From positions 1 to 60,793 of the forward strand of contig JAGWBB010000074.1 of assembly GCA_021296095.1 (NCBI GenBank): DNA of 60,793 bases, given 5' to 3'. The position numbers and the translations under genes are program-made. Under the pieces are notes generated by a model. That model ran no database searches. It saw only the letters and a list, made by a program, of their open reading frames with translations, and had not been told where the DNA came from. Each line of letters begins with the position of its first letter. The first letter of the stretch is position 1. Below are positions 46,881 through 58,374 of the stretch, one piece after another. This stretch comes from Desulfurellaceae bacterium. GTDB lineage: Bacteria; Desulfobacterota; Binatia; Bin18.

Positions 46881-48179
46881 TCAGGCGACCGGCCGGAACT
46901 CGATGTGCAGCTCCTTGAGCGCCCGCAGGGCGAAGTTGGGGGCGACGCCGAAGTCGTTCCTGCCCGGCGCAAACCACATCTCGTCAACCCGCTCCAGCAG
47001 CGTCTTGAACGACCAGTACAGCTCGCGCCGGGCCAGCGGCGCACCCAGGCAGTGATGGACGCCGGAGCCAAAAGCCAGATGCCGGCCGGGCTTGTCGCGC
47101 TCCAGGTCCAGCGTCTCGGGGCAGGCAAACTCCCGCTCGTCGCGGTTGCCGGCGGCGTAGCGCAGGTTGATCAGCGCTCCCTTGGGAATGCTGACGCCGT
47201 GCAGCTCGATGTCTGCGGCGGCCACCCGGAACAGTCCCTGTACCGGGCTTTCCAGACGCAGCACCTCCTCAACAAAGGTGCGCAGGTAGGTGTCCGGCTC
47301 GGCCTTGAGCATCCGCCAGGCCGGTGGGTTGTCGATGAGCAGCTTCACGCCAAAGCCGATGGCGTTGGTCGAGGTCTCGGCGCCTCCGACAAAAGTGTCG
47401 GCCATCATTTCGGCGTGCAGCTCATTATCGTTAAGCGGCCGCCCCCACTCGGGAATGACACGGTTGACCAGCTCGGACAGCAGCGTGTCATCGGGCTCCT
47501 TGCGCAGCCGCTCGAAGATGGGCTGAAAGTAGTGCTGGGCCTCGATCTCCATCTCCACCGACCAGTGTTCCTCGGCTTCGGTCTGCATCATACCGAGACG
47601 TTGGACCCAAGCGTCGGTCCAGGCTTTGATCTTCCAGATGTCCGCTTCAGGAACGCCCATTTGGCGGCCGATAATAATCAGGGGCAGTGGGACGGCGAAC
47701 TGCCTAACCCAGTCGCAACGGCCGTCGTCGATGAAGGCATCGATCAGCCTGGCGGCGGTTTCCCGGACGAAAGGGTCCATCTCGTTGATCTTCCGGGGGC
47801 GAAACGCCTCGTTGAAGATGGCTCGCATCTGCCGGTGGTTGGGGTCGTCACGGGCGGCCAGCGTCTGGGCCGGCACCCAGCCCCTGTCCTCGTACAGCTT
47901 CAGTATCCGCTTCGCGCGTTGCGGGTCGATCCGATTCCGTCCGCCGCTCTGCCCGCCGCGCATGCTGCTGACGAAGTGTTCGGTGTCGAGCAAGACCTGG
48001 TGCAAATCCTCGAAGCGGGTAATGACGTAGAAGCCGGTCAGCGGATCGCGCCACACCGGCGCCTCGTCGCGCAGCTTCTGGTAGGCGTGATACGGACAGT
48101 GCTGCAGGGCCACATCCAGCAGCTTGATGTCGTCAAGGGATTCCGGCACGACCGGCCGGTAGGGCGCTTTTGCGGTCAT
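46881..48179 (-). CDS. Cytochrome P450
   Basis: 432 aa soluble bacterial P450. Landmarks: I-helix FVGGAETSTNAIGFG (acid-alcohol pair E-T), K-helix EEVLRLESPVQG (ExxR), and the haem-binding loop HLAFGSGVHHCLGAPLARREL with the proximal Cys near residue 377. ATG 48179 after AAGGAA. Class I, needing a ferredoxin and reductase; the only iron-sulfur protein nearby is the exported Rieske protein upstream, which is an unlikely partner. Substrate unknown. Confidence 0.95.
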   Translation of the reverse strand: MTAKAPYRPVVPESLDDIKLLDVALQHCPYHAYQKLRDEAPVWRDPLTGFYVITRFEDLHQVLLDTEHFVSSMRGGQSGGRNRIDPQRAKRILKLYEDRGWVPAQTLAARDDPNHRQMRAIFNEAFRPRKINEMDPFVRETAARLIDAFIDDGRCDWVRQFAVPLPLIIIGRQMGVPEADIWKIKAWTDAWVQRLGMMQTEAEEHWSVEMEIEAQHYFQPIFERLRKEPDDTLLSELVNRVIPEWGRPLNDNELHAEMMADTFVGGAETSTNAIGFGVKLLIDNPPAWRMLKAEPDTYLRTFVEEVLRLESPVQGLFRVAAADIELHGVSIPKGALINLRYAAGNRDEREFACPETLDLERDKPGRHLAFGSGVHHCLGAPLARRELYWSFKTLLERVDEMWFAPGRNDFGVAPNFALRALKELHIEFRPVA

Positions 48180-48262: not shown

Positions 48263-48880
48263 TCACGTTCTCTTGCCGCCGACTCTTCCGCTGAACGGCC
48301 CAGCGACCGACAGGCTACCCCCGACCAGTTGCAGCGGCAGGACCGGCAGCGGCTTGGGCGCCGGACCGCCGTGAATACGCGCCCGGTCTTTTGGATCAAA
48401 GGCCGAGGAGTGACACGGACACACAAAGTGTTGTTGTTCGGCGTCCCACTCGGAGATATTGCAGCCAGTGTGAGTACACACCCCGGAGTAGGCGATAATG
48501 CCCTCCACCGCGACCTGCCGGGTTTTCGGACTCAGCTCTTGCTGGGCAAAACGGACCAGCAGAATCTGGTTCAGGCGCGACCGGTCGCGGGCGACCTGGC
48601 TGGCCGCGTCTCTGGGATAGGCCAGGACCGGCGGGCCGCCGAGCGGGATGTCATCGAGGGTAATCAGGCGGCCGTCGTTTTCCCAGAAGGGATAGACCAG
48701 CTCGTCCCCGGCTTGGGGCGGAAGTCTTCTGGGATCGTCCTTTTTCTTTGGGGCAGTCGCCGCGCTGTCGGCCAGCACCAGGCCCGCTCCGGCCGCTCCG
48801 ATCAGCGACTTGAGCAGCGTCCGACGGCTGACACGCCGACCGTGCGGACAGTCGCTGCAATTCACAAGACTCCTCGGCAT
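48263..48880 (-). CDS. Tat-exported Rieske (2Fe-2S) protein
   Basis: 205 aa from ATG 48880. A twin-arginine-like segment (GRRVSRRTLLKSLIGAAGAGLVLAD) follows a Cys-rich start (NCSDCPHG). The Rieske cluster ligands are CTHTGCN and CPCHSSAFD. The arrangement resembles ubiquinol-cytochrome c reductase iron-sulfur subunits without the cytochrome b partner. It lies 83 bp upstream of the P450 and PQQ dehydrogenase genes on the same strand, so it may accept electrons in the same periplasmic pathway. Confidence 0.85.
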   Translation of the reverse strand: MPRSLVNCSDCPHGRRVSRRTLLKSLIGAAGAGLVLADSAATAPKKKDDPRRLPPQAGDELVYPFWENDGRLITLDDIPLGGPPVLAYPRDAASQVARDRSRLNQILLVRFAQQELSPKTRQVAVEGIIAYSGVCTHTGCNISEWDAEQQHFVCPCHSSAFDPKDRARIHGGPAPKPLPVLPLQLVGGSLSVAGPFSGRVGGKRT

Positions 48881-49048
48881 GGAGGTTCTTCTACGTGCGG
48901 AGCGGAGCCGAGTCAATTGCGGCCGGAGACAACGGCTCGGCAGAATACGACGAACGAAGAGAGAAGACCGAGCAGGAACCGGCCCAAAAACGTTCCTGCC
49001 TAACTCTGAGGTGCCAGGCTTGTCTTCTCACACAAATACCGATAAATC

Positions 49049-49432: not shown

Positions 49433-50533
49433 ATGGCCACGGAGACCAATCAGTACCGACCCGACTACGCCGTCCCACCGGGCGTAATCTTAGAGGAACG
49501 CCTTGCGGCGCACGGCATCTCCCACGCCGAGTTCGCCCGGCGCTGCGGTCGTTCCGCAAAGCTCATCAGCGAGATCATTGCAGGCAAGGCTCCGCTTGAG
49601 CCGGCGACTGCGCTGCAATTCGAGAAAGTCCTGGGCGTCGATGCGGGCATCTGGCTCGGCATTGAAAAAGATTATCAGCTGCACCGGGCACGCGAGGCTG
49701 AGGCGGAAGAGACAGAAGGAGTGAGCTCGTGGGCGCGGACATTTCCTCTGAAGGAGCTGATAAAACGCAGAGTCATAGAAAAGCCCGCCTCTAATTCCGA
49801 CGCGGTGTCCAAACTGCTGACCTTCTTTGGGGTCGGGTCGATCAACGCATGGTGCGTGAAGCACGAACGAATGAGTGTCGCCTATCGGCACTCGCCGAGT
49901 TTTGCGAGCGATAAAACGGCGCTGGCAACGTGGCTGCGACTCGGAGAGCTGGAGGCTGAACAGCAGGAGGGTGGCGATTACAACGCGGCTCGATTCAAAC
50001 AGGCGTTAAAGGAAATTCGAGGACTCACACGAGTCCCGATGGCGAGTGCCATAGAAAAGGCGTGGCAGCTCTGCAACGGCACCGGCGTCGTGCTTGCGCT
50101 CGTCAAACCTCTCCCGAAGACTGCTCTCAGCGGTGCAGCCTGGTGGCCCACCCCTCGCAAGGCAGTGATCGAGCTTAGCGCTCGCTATAAAACAGGCGAT
50201 CATCTCTGGTTCAGCCTGTTTCACGAGGCTGCTCATCTCCTTCTGCATAGCAAGAAGGGCATTTTTATCGACTGGACGAATGGGAAGGAGGAACGTACCG
50301 ACATCGAAGCACAAGCCGATGCCTGGGCGTCCGACTTTCTTGTGCCTCGCTCCCATTGGGAACAGTTCACTGCCGCGGGTGCGTATAGTGAGAGCGCTGT
50401 TCGTCAATTCGCCGAGGAACAGGGCATAGCCCCGGGCATCATTGTCGGGAGACTTCAACATGAAAGACGTCTACCCTGGCGGACGCCGCTGAACAGCTTA
50501 AAGGTCCGGCTGAAGTGGGGAACGACAGCATGA
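49433..50533 (+). CDS. HTH antitoxin fused to ImmA/IrrE metallopeptidase domain
   Basis: 366 aa from ATG 49433 after GAGGGAGGG. The N-terminal third is a HigA/Xre-type helix-turn-helix (PPGVILEERLAAHGISHAEFARRCGRSAKLISEIIAGKAPLEPATALQFEKVLGV). The C-terminal half is an ImmA/IrrE peptidase domain with the zinc motif LFHEAAHLLLH and a downstream E in DIEAQADAWASDFLVPRSHW. It likely represses the operon and neutralises HigB; the peptidase domain may allow self-cleavage or regulated release. Confidence 0.88.
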   Translation: MATETNQYRPDYAVPPGVILEERLAAHGISHAEFARRCGRSAKLISEIIAGKAPLEPATALQFEKVLGVDAGIWLGIEKDYQLHRAREAEAEETEGVSSWARTFPLKELIKRRVIEKPASNSDAVSKLLTFFGVGSINAWCVKHERMSVAYRHSPSFASDKTALATWLRLGELEAEQQEGGDYNAARFKQALKEIRGLTRVPMASAIEKAWQLCNGTGVVLALVKPLPKTALSGAAWWPTPRKAVIELSARYKTGDHLWFSLFHEAAHLLLHSKKGIFIDWTNGKEERTDIEAQADAWASDFLVPRSHWEQFTAAGAYSESAVRQFAEEQGIAPGIIVGRLQHERRLPWRTPLNSLKVRLKWGTTA

Positions 50534-52512: not shown

Positions 52513-52558
52513 TCATGCAAGCGGGCGACAGCTGCCTGTGACGACAAGAGGCATGTCC

Positions 52559-53623
52559 ATGACACAAGACGCATACGAGCTTGAGGATCAGGCCGATCTG
52601 ATCGAGTTTTACTTTGAGCAGGGCGTGACCGACGGCCTGCCGGTCGTCCCGCCAACCGAACAGCGGGTGCAGGCCATGCTGGCCGCTACCCGACGGCCTG
52701 CGGATGAGGTGATTGCTGCGGTGCCACCCAACTATGCCGACGCCACGGTCGAGAAGATCGCCGTCAACGCCGTCATGGCCGGCTGCAAACCGGCCTATCT
52801 GCCGGTGGTGATCGCCGGTGTCCAGGCCATGTGTGATGAGCGGGCGAACCTGCACGGGGTGCAGGGCACGACCCATACCGCCACGCCCCTGTTTATTGTC
52901 AACGGCCCGATTCGCCACCAGCTCGACATCAACTGCGCCACCGGCGTGTTCGGCTCGGGCTGGCGGGCGAACGCCACGATCGGCCGGGCGCTGCGGCTCA
53001 TCATGGTCAATATCGGCGGCGCCCAGCCCGGAGAAATCGACAAATCGGCCATGGGCCACCCCGGCAAGTACACCTATTGCATTGGCGAGTATGAGGAGGT
53101 GAGCCCGTGGGAACCGCTGCACGTTGAGCACGGCTACGGGCGGCAGCAGAGCACCATCAGCGTATACTGCTGCGATGCGCCCCAGTGCATCAGCAACCAC
53201 GGCAGCCGGACCGCCCGGGGTATCCTGAGCACGATTGGGGCCAGCATGAGCGTCGGCTGGAGTGACAAGACATATTTGTCGGCCAATTATCTGGTCGTCA
53301 TCGGTCCCGAGCACGCCGAGACGATTGCCGCCGACGGCCTGGACAAGCGGGCCGTCAAACGCTTTCTGTATGAGAATGTCCGGCGACCATTGCACGAGCT
53401 GCTGCCCGGCCCGGACGGCAGCGAGGGCCTCAACCCCGAGCGTCTGCCCGGCTGGCTCGACGCCACCAACACGGCCAGCCTCATTCCAAAAGTCGCCAGC
53501 CCGGACAATATCATTATCGCCGTTGCCGGCGGCACGGCCGGGCGCTTTTCGGTCCATATGTGTGGCTGGGGGGGCGGCGCGGGCAGCAGCCAGCTTGTCA
53601 CCGTCCCGATTGACGACAACTGA
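52559..53623 (+). CDS. UGSC-selenoprotein partner, unknown enzyme
   Basis: 354 aa from ATG 52559 (an ATG at 52553 is also in frame; AAGAGG lies upstream). No family is recognised with certainty. Conserved-looking elements are VTDGLPVVPPTEQRVQAML, several Cys/His positions (VMAGCKPAYLPVV, VQGTTHTATPLFIVNGPI, LDINCATGVFGSGWRANATIGRALRL, KYTYCIGEYEE, VYCCDAPQC) and Gly-rich strands near the end (IIIAVAGGTAGRFSVHMCGWGGGAG). No signal peptide. Its stop is 23 bp before the selenoprotein start, so the two form an operon and probably one redox or sulfur-handling enzyme. Confidence 0.65.
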   Translation: MTQDAYELEDQADLIEFYFEQGVTDGLPVVPPTEQRVQAMLAATRRPADEVIAAVPPNYADATVEKIAVNAVMAGCKPAYLPVVIAGVQAMCDERANLHGVQGTTHTATPLFIVNGPIRHQLDINCATGVFGSGWRANATIGRALRLIMVNIGGAQPGEIDKSAMGHPGKYTYCIGEYEEVSPWEPLHVEHGYGRQQSTISVYCCDAPQCISNHGSRTARGILSTIGASMSVGWSDKTYLSANYLVVIGPEHAETIAADGLDKRAVKRFLYENVRRPLHELLPGPDGSEGLNPERLPGWLDATNTASLIPKVASPDNIIIAVAGGTAGRFSVHMCGWGGGAGSSQLVTVPIDDN

Positions 53624-53646
53624 TAGACCCACAGGAGGAATCAGCC

Positions 53647-54198
53647 ATGGCCAAACTCTACAACCCGACCGCCGCCCCGGTGCAGGCCAGCGCCTCGCTC
53701 GCCGCCCGCGTCCCGGATCTGCGCGGCAAGACGATTGGCTTGCTCGATATCAGCAAAGCCAAGGGTAATTTCTTTCTCGACCGGCTCGCCGAGCGGCTTG
53801 AGGCCCAGTTCCAGCCGGCTGAGATCATCCGGCGCATGAAGCCGACCTTTGCCCGTCCCGCCCCAGCCGACACCCGCCAGGAGCTGGCCCAGAAGTGCCA
53901 TCTGATCATCGAAGCCCTGGCCGATTGAGGCTCGTGTACAACGTGCAGTGTGCACGACGGAATCTTTTTTGAAAAAGCCGGCATTCCGGCGGCGGTCTTT
54001 GCCACTACCGAGTTCAGCAATGCGGCGCGCGCCCAGGCCAAGGCTCTGGGGCTGCCCGATTTTGAGGTCATTCTGGTTGAGCATCCCATTCAGCCCCTGA
54101 CCGCGGAGGAGGTCCACGGTCGGGCCGATGCGGTCTTTGCGCAGTTGCTCACCAAACTGACCGGCGGCTCGTCCCTGGGGTTGCGGGCTGCGGGCTGA
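53647..54198 (+). CDS. UGSC-motif selenoprotein (in-frame TGA = selenocysteine)
   Basis: 183 aa if TGA 53926-53928 is read as selenocysteine-94. The frame is continuous across it: IIEALAD-U-GSCTTCSVHDGIFFEKAGIPAAVFATTEFS, the signature from which UGSC proteins take their name, with Cys97 and Cys100 close by. Before the TGA are VPDLRGKTIGLLDISKAKGNFFLDRLAERL and RPAPADTRQELAQKCHLIIEALAD. After it come LPDFEVILVEHPIQPLTAEEVHGRADAVFAQLL and the stop at 54196. ATG 53647 has GGAGG nine bases upstream. A SECIS-like stem-loop follows the TGA. Read conventionally the gene would stop after 93 residues and lose its conserved half. The fold resembles glycine/sarcosine-reductase-type selenoproteins; reaction unknown. 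Confidence 0.9.
53932..53957 (+). promoter_or_regulatory. Candidate bacterial SECIS hairpin
   Basis: TCGTGTAC (53932-53939) pairs with GTGCACGA (53950-53957) in an 8-bp stem including one G-U pair, closed by a 10-nt loop AACGTGCAGT that contains GU. It begins three bases after the TGA at 53926-53928, putting the loop 12-21 bases from it, close to the spacing used by SelB-dependent bacterial SECIS elements inside the coding region. The bases also code GSCTTCSVH, so the RNA structure is compatible with the motif. Confidence 0.7.
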
Positions 54199-57378: not shown

Positions 57379-58374
57379 ATGCAAATCGGGCTGAGTCTGA
57401 ACGGCGATCAGGTCACGCTCGAAGAAACCCTCCAGTTTGCCCGCCAAGCCGAGGCCCGGGGCTTTGCCTCGATCTGGGTGCCGGAAGCCTGGCGGGACGC
57501 CTTCGTGCCCCTGACCGCCATCGCGCTGCAAACCAGCCGGATTCGCCTTGGCACCGCCATCGCTCTGGCCCTGGCGCGCAGCCCGGTCCTGATGGAAAAG
57601 GCGGCCGCGTCACTCGACGAGCTGTCCCACGGTCGCCTCACTCTCGGCATCGGCCCCGGCCCAAAGGCCTGGAACGAGAACTGGCACAATGTCACGTTTC
57701 ACCCGCCGGCCGCCTACATCCGGGAATATACCGAGGTGTTGCGGCTGATGTGGTCGGCGCACTCGGGGAGGCGCATCAGCTACGCCGGCACCTATCTCAA
57801 CATCACCGACTATGAGCGCTTCGGGCGGCCGTATCGGGAGCGCGTTCCGATCTACTTCGGGGCGGTCATGCCGCGCTTTCTGCGGGCCGCCGGGGCGACG
57901 GCCGACGGCTTGTGCGTGGCCTCTTTTCATACCGCTCGGTATCTGCGCGAAGTCGTCCACCCCAACCTCAAGGCCGGACGCGGCTCGACGGATCGCAAGC
58001 AGGAGGTTGTCACGACCGTCATCTGCGCGGTCGATCCCAACGGCGACGCGGCCAGACAGCGGGTCAAGGGCCAGCTGGCCTTTTACGCCAGCATTCCGTA
58101 CTACGACGTGGTGCTCGACCTGCACGCCTTCGGTCGGGACACAACGCGTATCCGCGAGGCAGCCCAACGCGGCGACAGCGCCGGGATGATCGCCGGGGTG
58201 AGCGACGAGATGGTGGATCAGGTGGCTATTGCCGGGACCCCGCAGGAATGCCGCGAGCAGCTGGCCCGGCACGACGGGCTGGTCGATGAACTGATCCTCA
58301 CCTCACCCTCGTTCGGCCTGGACCGGGCCGAGATTGTGCGCAATCACCAGCAGCTGCTGGCCGCCTTTCCCTGA
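57379..58374 (+). CDS. LLM-class F420-dependent oxidoreductase
   Basis: 331 aa from ATG 57379 with AGAGGAGGACGG upstream. Barrel features: MQIGLSLNGDQVTLEETLQFARQAEARGFASIWVPEAWRDAF, SRIRLGTAIALALARSPVLMEKAAASLDELSHGRLTLGIGPGPKAW, VPIYFGAVMPRFLRAAGATADG, AGTPQECREQLARH. It belongs to the methylenetetrahydromethanopterin-reductase-like group that uses F420. It is followed by a second LLM gene 35 bp downstream, then an amidase pair. Confidence 0.9.
   Translation: MQIGLSLNGDQVTLEETLQFARQAEARGFASIWVPEAWRDAFVPLTAIALQTSRIRLGTAIALALARSPVLMEKAAASLDELSHGRLTLGIGPGPKAWNENWHNVTFHPPAAYIREYTEVLRLMWSAHSGRRISYAGTYLNITDYERFGRPYRERVPIYFGAVMPRFLRAAGATADGLCVASFHTARYLREVVHPNLKAGRGSTDRKQEVVTTVICAVDPNGDAARQRVKGQLAFYASIPYYDVVLDLHAFGRDTTRIREAAQRGDSAGMIAGVSDEMVDQVAIAGTPQECREQLARHDGLVDELILTSPSFGLDRAEIVRNHQQLLAAFP

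Follow-up and report, generated by a model that had tools for sequence, protein, structure and literature searches.

Locus and gene content

The window is the whole stretch of DNA analysed, 60,793 nucleotides of contig JAGWBB010000074.1, which belongs to a metagenome-assembled genome of 4.32 Mb in 185 contigs. Positions 53647-54198 of its forward strand form one frame, which encodes 183 residues if the TGA at 53926-53928 (codon 94) is read as selenocysteine. The features of the locus are as follows:

52553-53623, + strand: gene of the presumed obligate partner protein (356 residues), directly upstream of the UGSC gene; from adjacent and fused loci in a genome survey
53633-53638, + strand: Shine-Dalgarno sequence AGGAGG of the UGSC gene, ahead of the ATG at 53647; from the sequence
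53647-54198, + strand: UGSC-family selenoprotein gene; matches to PF24696 and NF041046, AlphaFold2 model with a mean pLDDT of 93.8
53926-53928, + strand: UGA codon assigned to selenocysteine 94; TGA in 8/8 close orthologues and in 7/7 copies of the same genome
53935-53937, + strand: codon of Cys97, the conserved partner of Sec94 (UxxC); invariant in 39 homologues
53941-53957, + strand: putative SECIS hairpin, stem 53942-53947 with 53951-53956 and loop GUG at 53948-53950; from covariation

The full translation scored 172.7 bits with the Pfam model PF24696 (UGSC; cut-off 25), and the whole protein 164.2 bits with the NCBIfam model NF041046 (UGSC (seleno)protein; cut-off 125). This agrees with the family membership proposed in a preliminary description of the locus. 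When the parts before and after the TGA were compared separately with PF24696, they matched with 60 and 91 bits, respectively, each at the expected model positions. The motif that gives the family its name is encoded by TGA-GGC-TCG-TGT (53926-53937). The family corresponds to the 'UGSC-containing protein' described from Global Ocean Sampling data in 2008 (PMC2398784).

The upstream gene ends with tandem in-frame stop codons, TGA-TAG, at 53621-53626. The second stop may serve as a safeguard in a genome that decodes UGA. Further upstream, 49433-50533 encodes a helix-turn-helix protein with an IrrE/M78 peptidase-like part, an architecture resembling that of antitoxins or repressors.

Decoding of the in-frame UGA

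Conventional translation with table 11 ends after 93 residues, the fragment length given in the preliminary description, and offers a possible GTG start at 53950. On these grounds the TGA could be a true stop or a nonsense mutation, followed by a decaying remnant or a separate gene. The comparative data speak against this. Codon 94 is TGA in all eight orthologues compared, and each of the seven UGSC genes of the genome contains exactly one in-frame TGA. In the eight orthologues dN is about a tenth of dS on either side of the TGA. For the seven more distant ones, the part after the TGA has a dN of 0.08-0.11 and a dS of about 0.9-1.3, a constraint equal to that on the preceding part; the nearest orthologue (L027) has a similar ratio at smaller distances. 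The in-frame starts beyond the TGA (GTG 53950, TTG 54145 and TTG 54181) all lack a Shine-Dalgarno-like site. A nonsense mutation and an arrangement of two genes were therefore rejected, based on the selection past the TGA and the lack of a ribosome site at the later starts. The genome also encodes the complete selenocysteine machinery, namely tRNA-Sec (anticodon TCA), selA, selB and selD. The stop or nonsense reading is thus exceedingly improbable and appears, judging from these comparative data, to be refuted in practice already.

selB and selD adjoin in this genome, and selD itself contains an in-frame TGA. selA and the tRNA-Sec gene are neighbours on opposite strands (loci listed for both arrangements: L042 = G000:C46 and L043 = G000:C9).

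Among 198 genomes of the phylum, 22 contain UGSC. All 21 genomes with the TGA form have selA, and one selA-less genome (G092) has UGSC in the Cys form, so that homologues carry U at this position, or C in a single genome without selA. Since selA occurs in 183 of the 198 genomes (92%), this correlation is consistent with recoding but weak when taken alone. One relative (G033; loci L062, L073 and L130-L134) has 18 UGSC copies, mostly fusions. Several of the copies lack the U/C-G-S-C motif, as if some had become non-catalytic. An interpretation of the non-TGA paralogues in G033 and G048 as simple Cys forms was rejected, as the motif is lost in most of them.

Taken together, the family matches before and after the TGA, the selenocysteine machinery, the seven TGA-containing copies, a dN far below dS and the covarying hairpin described below lead us to accept recoding. 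Based on this comparative evidence, the UGA at 53926-53928 is almost certainly read as selenocysteine in a true selenoprotein gene. SelB and tRNA-Sec would decode the codon, directed by the hairpin at 53941-53957, to yield the 183-residue protein, as comparative genomics suggests. The observation in the preliminary description of one frame that is coding on both sides of the TGA (its coordinates, the codon number and the peptide), with conserved sequence after it and no ribosome site for a second gene, is confirmed, and its interpretation as a selenoprotein is supported. Both findings that it had named as refuting, a genome without Sec machinery and a lack of homologues with Cys or U at the site, were checked and do not apply. 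With conventional gene calling, seven genes of this genome would be truncated at the active site.

Putative SECIS element

Covariation was analysed in 30 distinct sequences from 34 genes, in which the 42 bases from the TGA onwards align without gaps; ten divergent members, mostly fusions, whose hairpins differ, were left out. In the aligned 7-bp stem (columns 16-22 with 26-32), 94% of the cells are paired. Cells changed on both sides numbered 17, compared to 3.1 in shuffles, with double changes in four pairs, and the covariation score was reached by none of 500 shuffles. With the U of the UGA taken as base 1, the loop carries an invariant G23 and U24 in the 30 distinct sequences. At the present locus, the hairpin has 6 bp and a 3-nt loop (GUG) starting 19 nt after the UGA; its outer position (53941/53957) is A-A here and U-A in most sequences.

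Loop and spacing are in line with the published rule for bacterial SECIS elements (PMC13188914). The same source gives an energy threshold of ≤ -7.5 kcal/mol, of which the conserved hairpin falls just short with -6.3 kcal/mol alone and -7.4 kcal/mol in its region. The minimum-energy fold of the region (-12.3 kcal/mol) is not the conserved hairpin (-7.4 kcal/mol) but a long stem just after the TGA. This stem was rejected as the SECIS element because it does not covary; a role within the close orthologues, all of which are able to form it, is still possible. Hence, of the stem-loop with GU in its loop proposed in the preliminary description, a SECIS-like hairpin with compensatory changes is present at 53941-53957, whereas the stem said to start three bases after the TGA shows no covariation.

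L063, the only true Cys form, has C in place of the invariant loop U, and a central pair is disrupted. These changes fit a loss of the need for a SECIS element, judged from the sequence of one case only. A scan of the region against Rfam returned nothing relevant.

Obligate partner gene

At the UGSC loci examined, the partner gene lies on either side of UGSC, in the same orientation, or is fused to it; in L063 it is located further downstream. In the fused form, found in other genomes, the order is UGSC-partner, with the partner joined at the C-terminal end of UGSC. A profile search of the 198 genomes detected the partner in 22/22 genomes with UGSC and in 1/176 genomes without it (G169), the latter as a contig-end fragment only. 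Copy numbers of the two genes match in most genomes, with seven and seven in the present one. These distributions indicate that UGSC and its partner very probably form an obligate pair.

The partner protein matches no Pfam or NCBIfam family. A fusion of UGSC to a domain called Unknown_1 was reported in 2008 (PMC2398784), and this domain is probably the same protein as the partner. For a natural fusion (L047), AlphaFold2 yielded a confident model with a pLDDT of 90.0 and a pTM of 0.88. A Foldseek search with this model gave no match at E ≤ 0.001; the UGSC domain filled the list, so that the partner part was barely probed. The partner was also considered as a homologue of GrdE, which found no support, with an hhalign probability of 0.2% against one GrdE-like sequence. 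It was sought at GrdB/PrdB-like loci and none was found there. The apparent N-terminal extensions of UGSC in L045 and L068 were rejected as fusions, as they are out-of-frame overlaps with the partner gene.

Active-site residues and predicted fold

Only P7, L25, Sec/Cys94 and Cys97 are invariant in the 39 homologues. The preliminary description had placed Sec94, Cys97 and Cys100 in one redox centre. The first two are present in 39/39 homologues and Cys100 in 18/39, which is why we consider Sec94-Cys97 to be the redox pair and do not retain Cys100.

In the AlphaFold2 model of the UGSC protein (mean pLDDT 93.8), five strands alternate with helices, and the helix that follows the third strand has Sec94 at its start. 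Structural neighbours among the matches listed have common flavodoxin-like folds, the top ones being CheY-, lumazine-synthase- and periplasmic-binding-like, and thioredoxin is absent among them, although an absent match does not amount to proof. Sequence searches of solved structures with the UGSC profile, the fusion profile and a GrdB returned no relative. The fold of UGSC is predicted to be flavodoxin-like and not thioredoxin-like as in the literature, where reviews list UGSC among the thioredoxin-like folds; the model calls this label into question.

The fold bears on a second reading, according to which the protein does contain selenocysteine but serves as a general thiol-disulphide or peroxide oxidoreductase, with Sec94-Cys97 as a thioredoxin-like pair and the partner as client or reductant. 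The UxxC motif, the fold assignment in reviews and work on the peroxidase activity of GrdB, a relative, cited in PMC3091704 are all in its favour. The predicted flavodoxin-like topology, in which Sec94 follows the third strand, and the nature of the top structural matches argue against it, and the strict pairing with a single partner and the many paralogues per genome are better explained by a substrate-specific enzyme. We regard this reading as a serious candidate, though one that we would not expect to hold.

Less probable still, and in our view unlikely, is that the selenocysteine site binds a metal or cofactor, or belongs to a redox-active assembly, rather than attacking a substrate as a nucleophile. 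The best natural-protein match to the UGSC model, chain H of the methyl-coenzyme M reductase activation complex (8s7v_H; Z 10.7 over 138 residues), would be compatible with such a role. Its rmsd of 5.3 is high, however, a de novo design ranks first in the list, and the scores of many common alpha/beta folds come close, so that the match may reflect the fold only. In addition, apart from Sec94 and Cys97, no set of metal ligands is conserved among the 39 homologues.

Relation to GrdB and PrdB

For a profile comparison with UGSC, GrdB and PrdB-like selenoproteins from the phylum surveyed were translated across their in-frame TGA. The alignment places Sec on Sec and is ungapped for 21 residues, with conserved E, G and P at positions +15, +18 and +20 after Sec and a later HP. 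hhalign gave a probability of 95.7% and a score of 61.3, compared to 23.3 for the best of 40 column shuffles; an earlier GrdB/PrdB set had scored 51.5 versus 19.4 for shuffles. The homology spans about 70 residues around Sec. With good confidence, albeit on profile evidence, the Sec domain of UGSC can be considered distantly homologous to the one in GrdB and PrdB.

The GrdB model of Pfam (PF07355) and the GrdB/PrdB models of NCBIfam miss the single UGSC sequence, for which only UGSC was reported at E values up to 10. Matches of PF07355 (GRDB) in L074-L093 stop at the residue before Sec, and because they end just before this codon, the model is blind to the relation. PF07355 was probably built from truncated proteins and thereby misses the active-site domain. 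UGSC is a relative of GrdB and PrdB and is not filed here as a member of either.

The genome also encodes two PrdB/GrdB-like selenoproteins (L085 / L116 in G000:C56, and G000:C17:4421-4975). Both have one in-frame TGA, exactly where the Pfam GRDB model ends.

Proposed function

Several of the UGSC paralogues have catabolic genes as neighbours: a CoA-transferase III is found near three copies, and an amidohydrolase, a cyclase and an SDR also occur. These neighbours point to small-molecule catabolism. Genes for a cytochrome P450, a Rieske protein and a luciferase-like monooxygenase in the window (46881-48179, 48263-48916 and 57379-58374, respectively) are in keeping with a catabolic region.

The mechanism proposed for PrdB (PMC3091704) starts with an attack of the selenolate on the alpha carbon of the substrate, which the partner subunit holds. 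A Cys of PrdB would then split the selenoether, and the Se-S bond would be reduced by an electron-transfer protein. As UGSC retains Sec, a Cys at +3 and an obligate second subunit of its own, chemistry of the PrdB type on another substrate is considered most likely. The UGSC protein would be one subunit and the upstream-encoded partner the other, a physical complex that we infer from the genomic association. By analogy to PrdB, the reaction would begin with an attack of the Sec94 selenolate on a carbon of the partner-bound substrate. Cys97 would then resolve the C-Se adduct into a Se-S bond, to be reduced again by an external thiol system. Overall, the substrate would be cleaved reductively in the course of small-molecule catabolism. 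UGSC and its partner thus most likely act as a two-subunit reductive selenoenzyme in the breakdown of small molecules, with a reaction that we infer. The whole chain, i.e. a recoded UGSC forming a two-subunit reductive selenoenzyme with the upstream partner by a PrdB-like mechanism, rests in its last part on analogy and could equally well hold or fail.

Because the partner is unlike the one GrdE-like sequence compared (0.2%), the pyruvoyl half of the glycine and proline reductase mechanism has no shown counterpart in the pair. UGSC has multiplied to seven genes here and to 18 in a relative. We tentatively suggest, as a possibility somewhat short of a probable one, that UGSC and its partner represent a new branch of reductive selenoenzymes of the GrdB/PrdB type with a different substrate-holding subunit, acting on diverse small molecules in hosts that are not amino-acid fermenters. 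With an obligate partner and relatives for which a mechanism has been proposed, UGSC becomes a testable enzyme instead of an unknown.

Comparison with known systems

The UGSC family itself is already known; what is new is the obligate partner and the relation of the active site to GrdB and PrdB. No mention of the pair or of this relation was found in the literature searched, a body outside which many subscription journals lie. With other members of the family (NF041046 / PF24696, PMC2398784) the present protein shares the whole-length match, the U-G-S-C motif, the Sec codon and the putative SECIS element. It is distinguished by seven copies in one genome and an unfused upstream partner and is otherwise an ordinary member.

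A motif of the UxxC type is common to UGSC and the thioredoxin-fold selenoproteins (Prx-like, Trx-like). The latter differ in topology, with the motif after the first strand in thioredoxin and after the third strand in the predicted flavodoxin-like arrangement of UGSC. Compared to GrdB (TIGR01918; glycine/betaine/sarcosine reductase) and PrdB (D-proline reductase), the third Cys of the UxxCxxC motif is not conserved in UGSC, and the UGSC partner has no similarity to the one GrdE-like sequence tested. The spacing U-x-x-C ... E-x-x-G-[IV]-P ... HP is shared by all three, and UGSC continues for about 90 residues after Sec, as does PrdB of C. sticklandii (Sec 152 of 242, PMC3091704).
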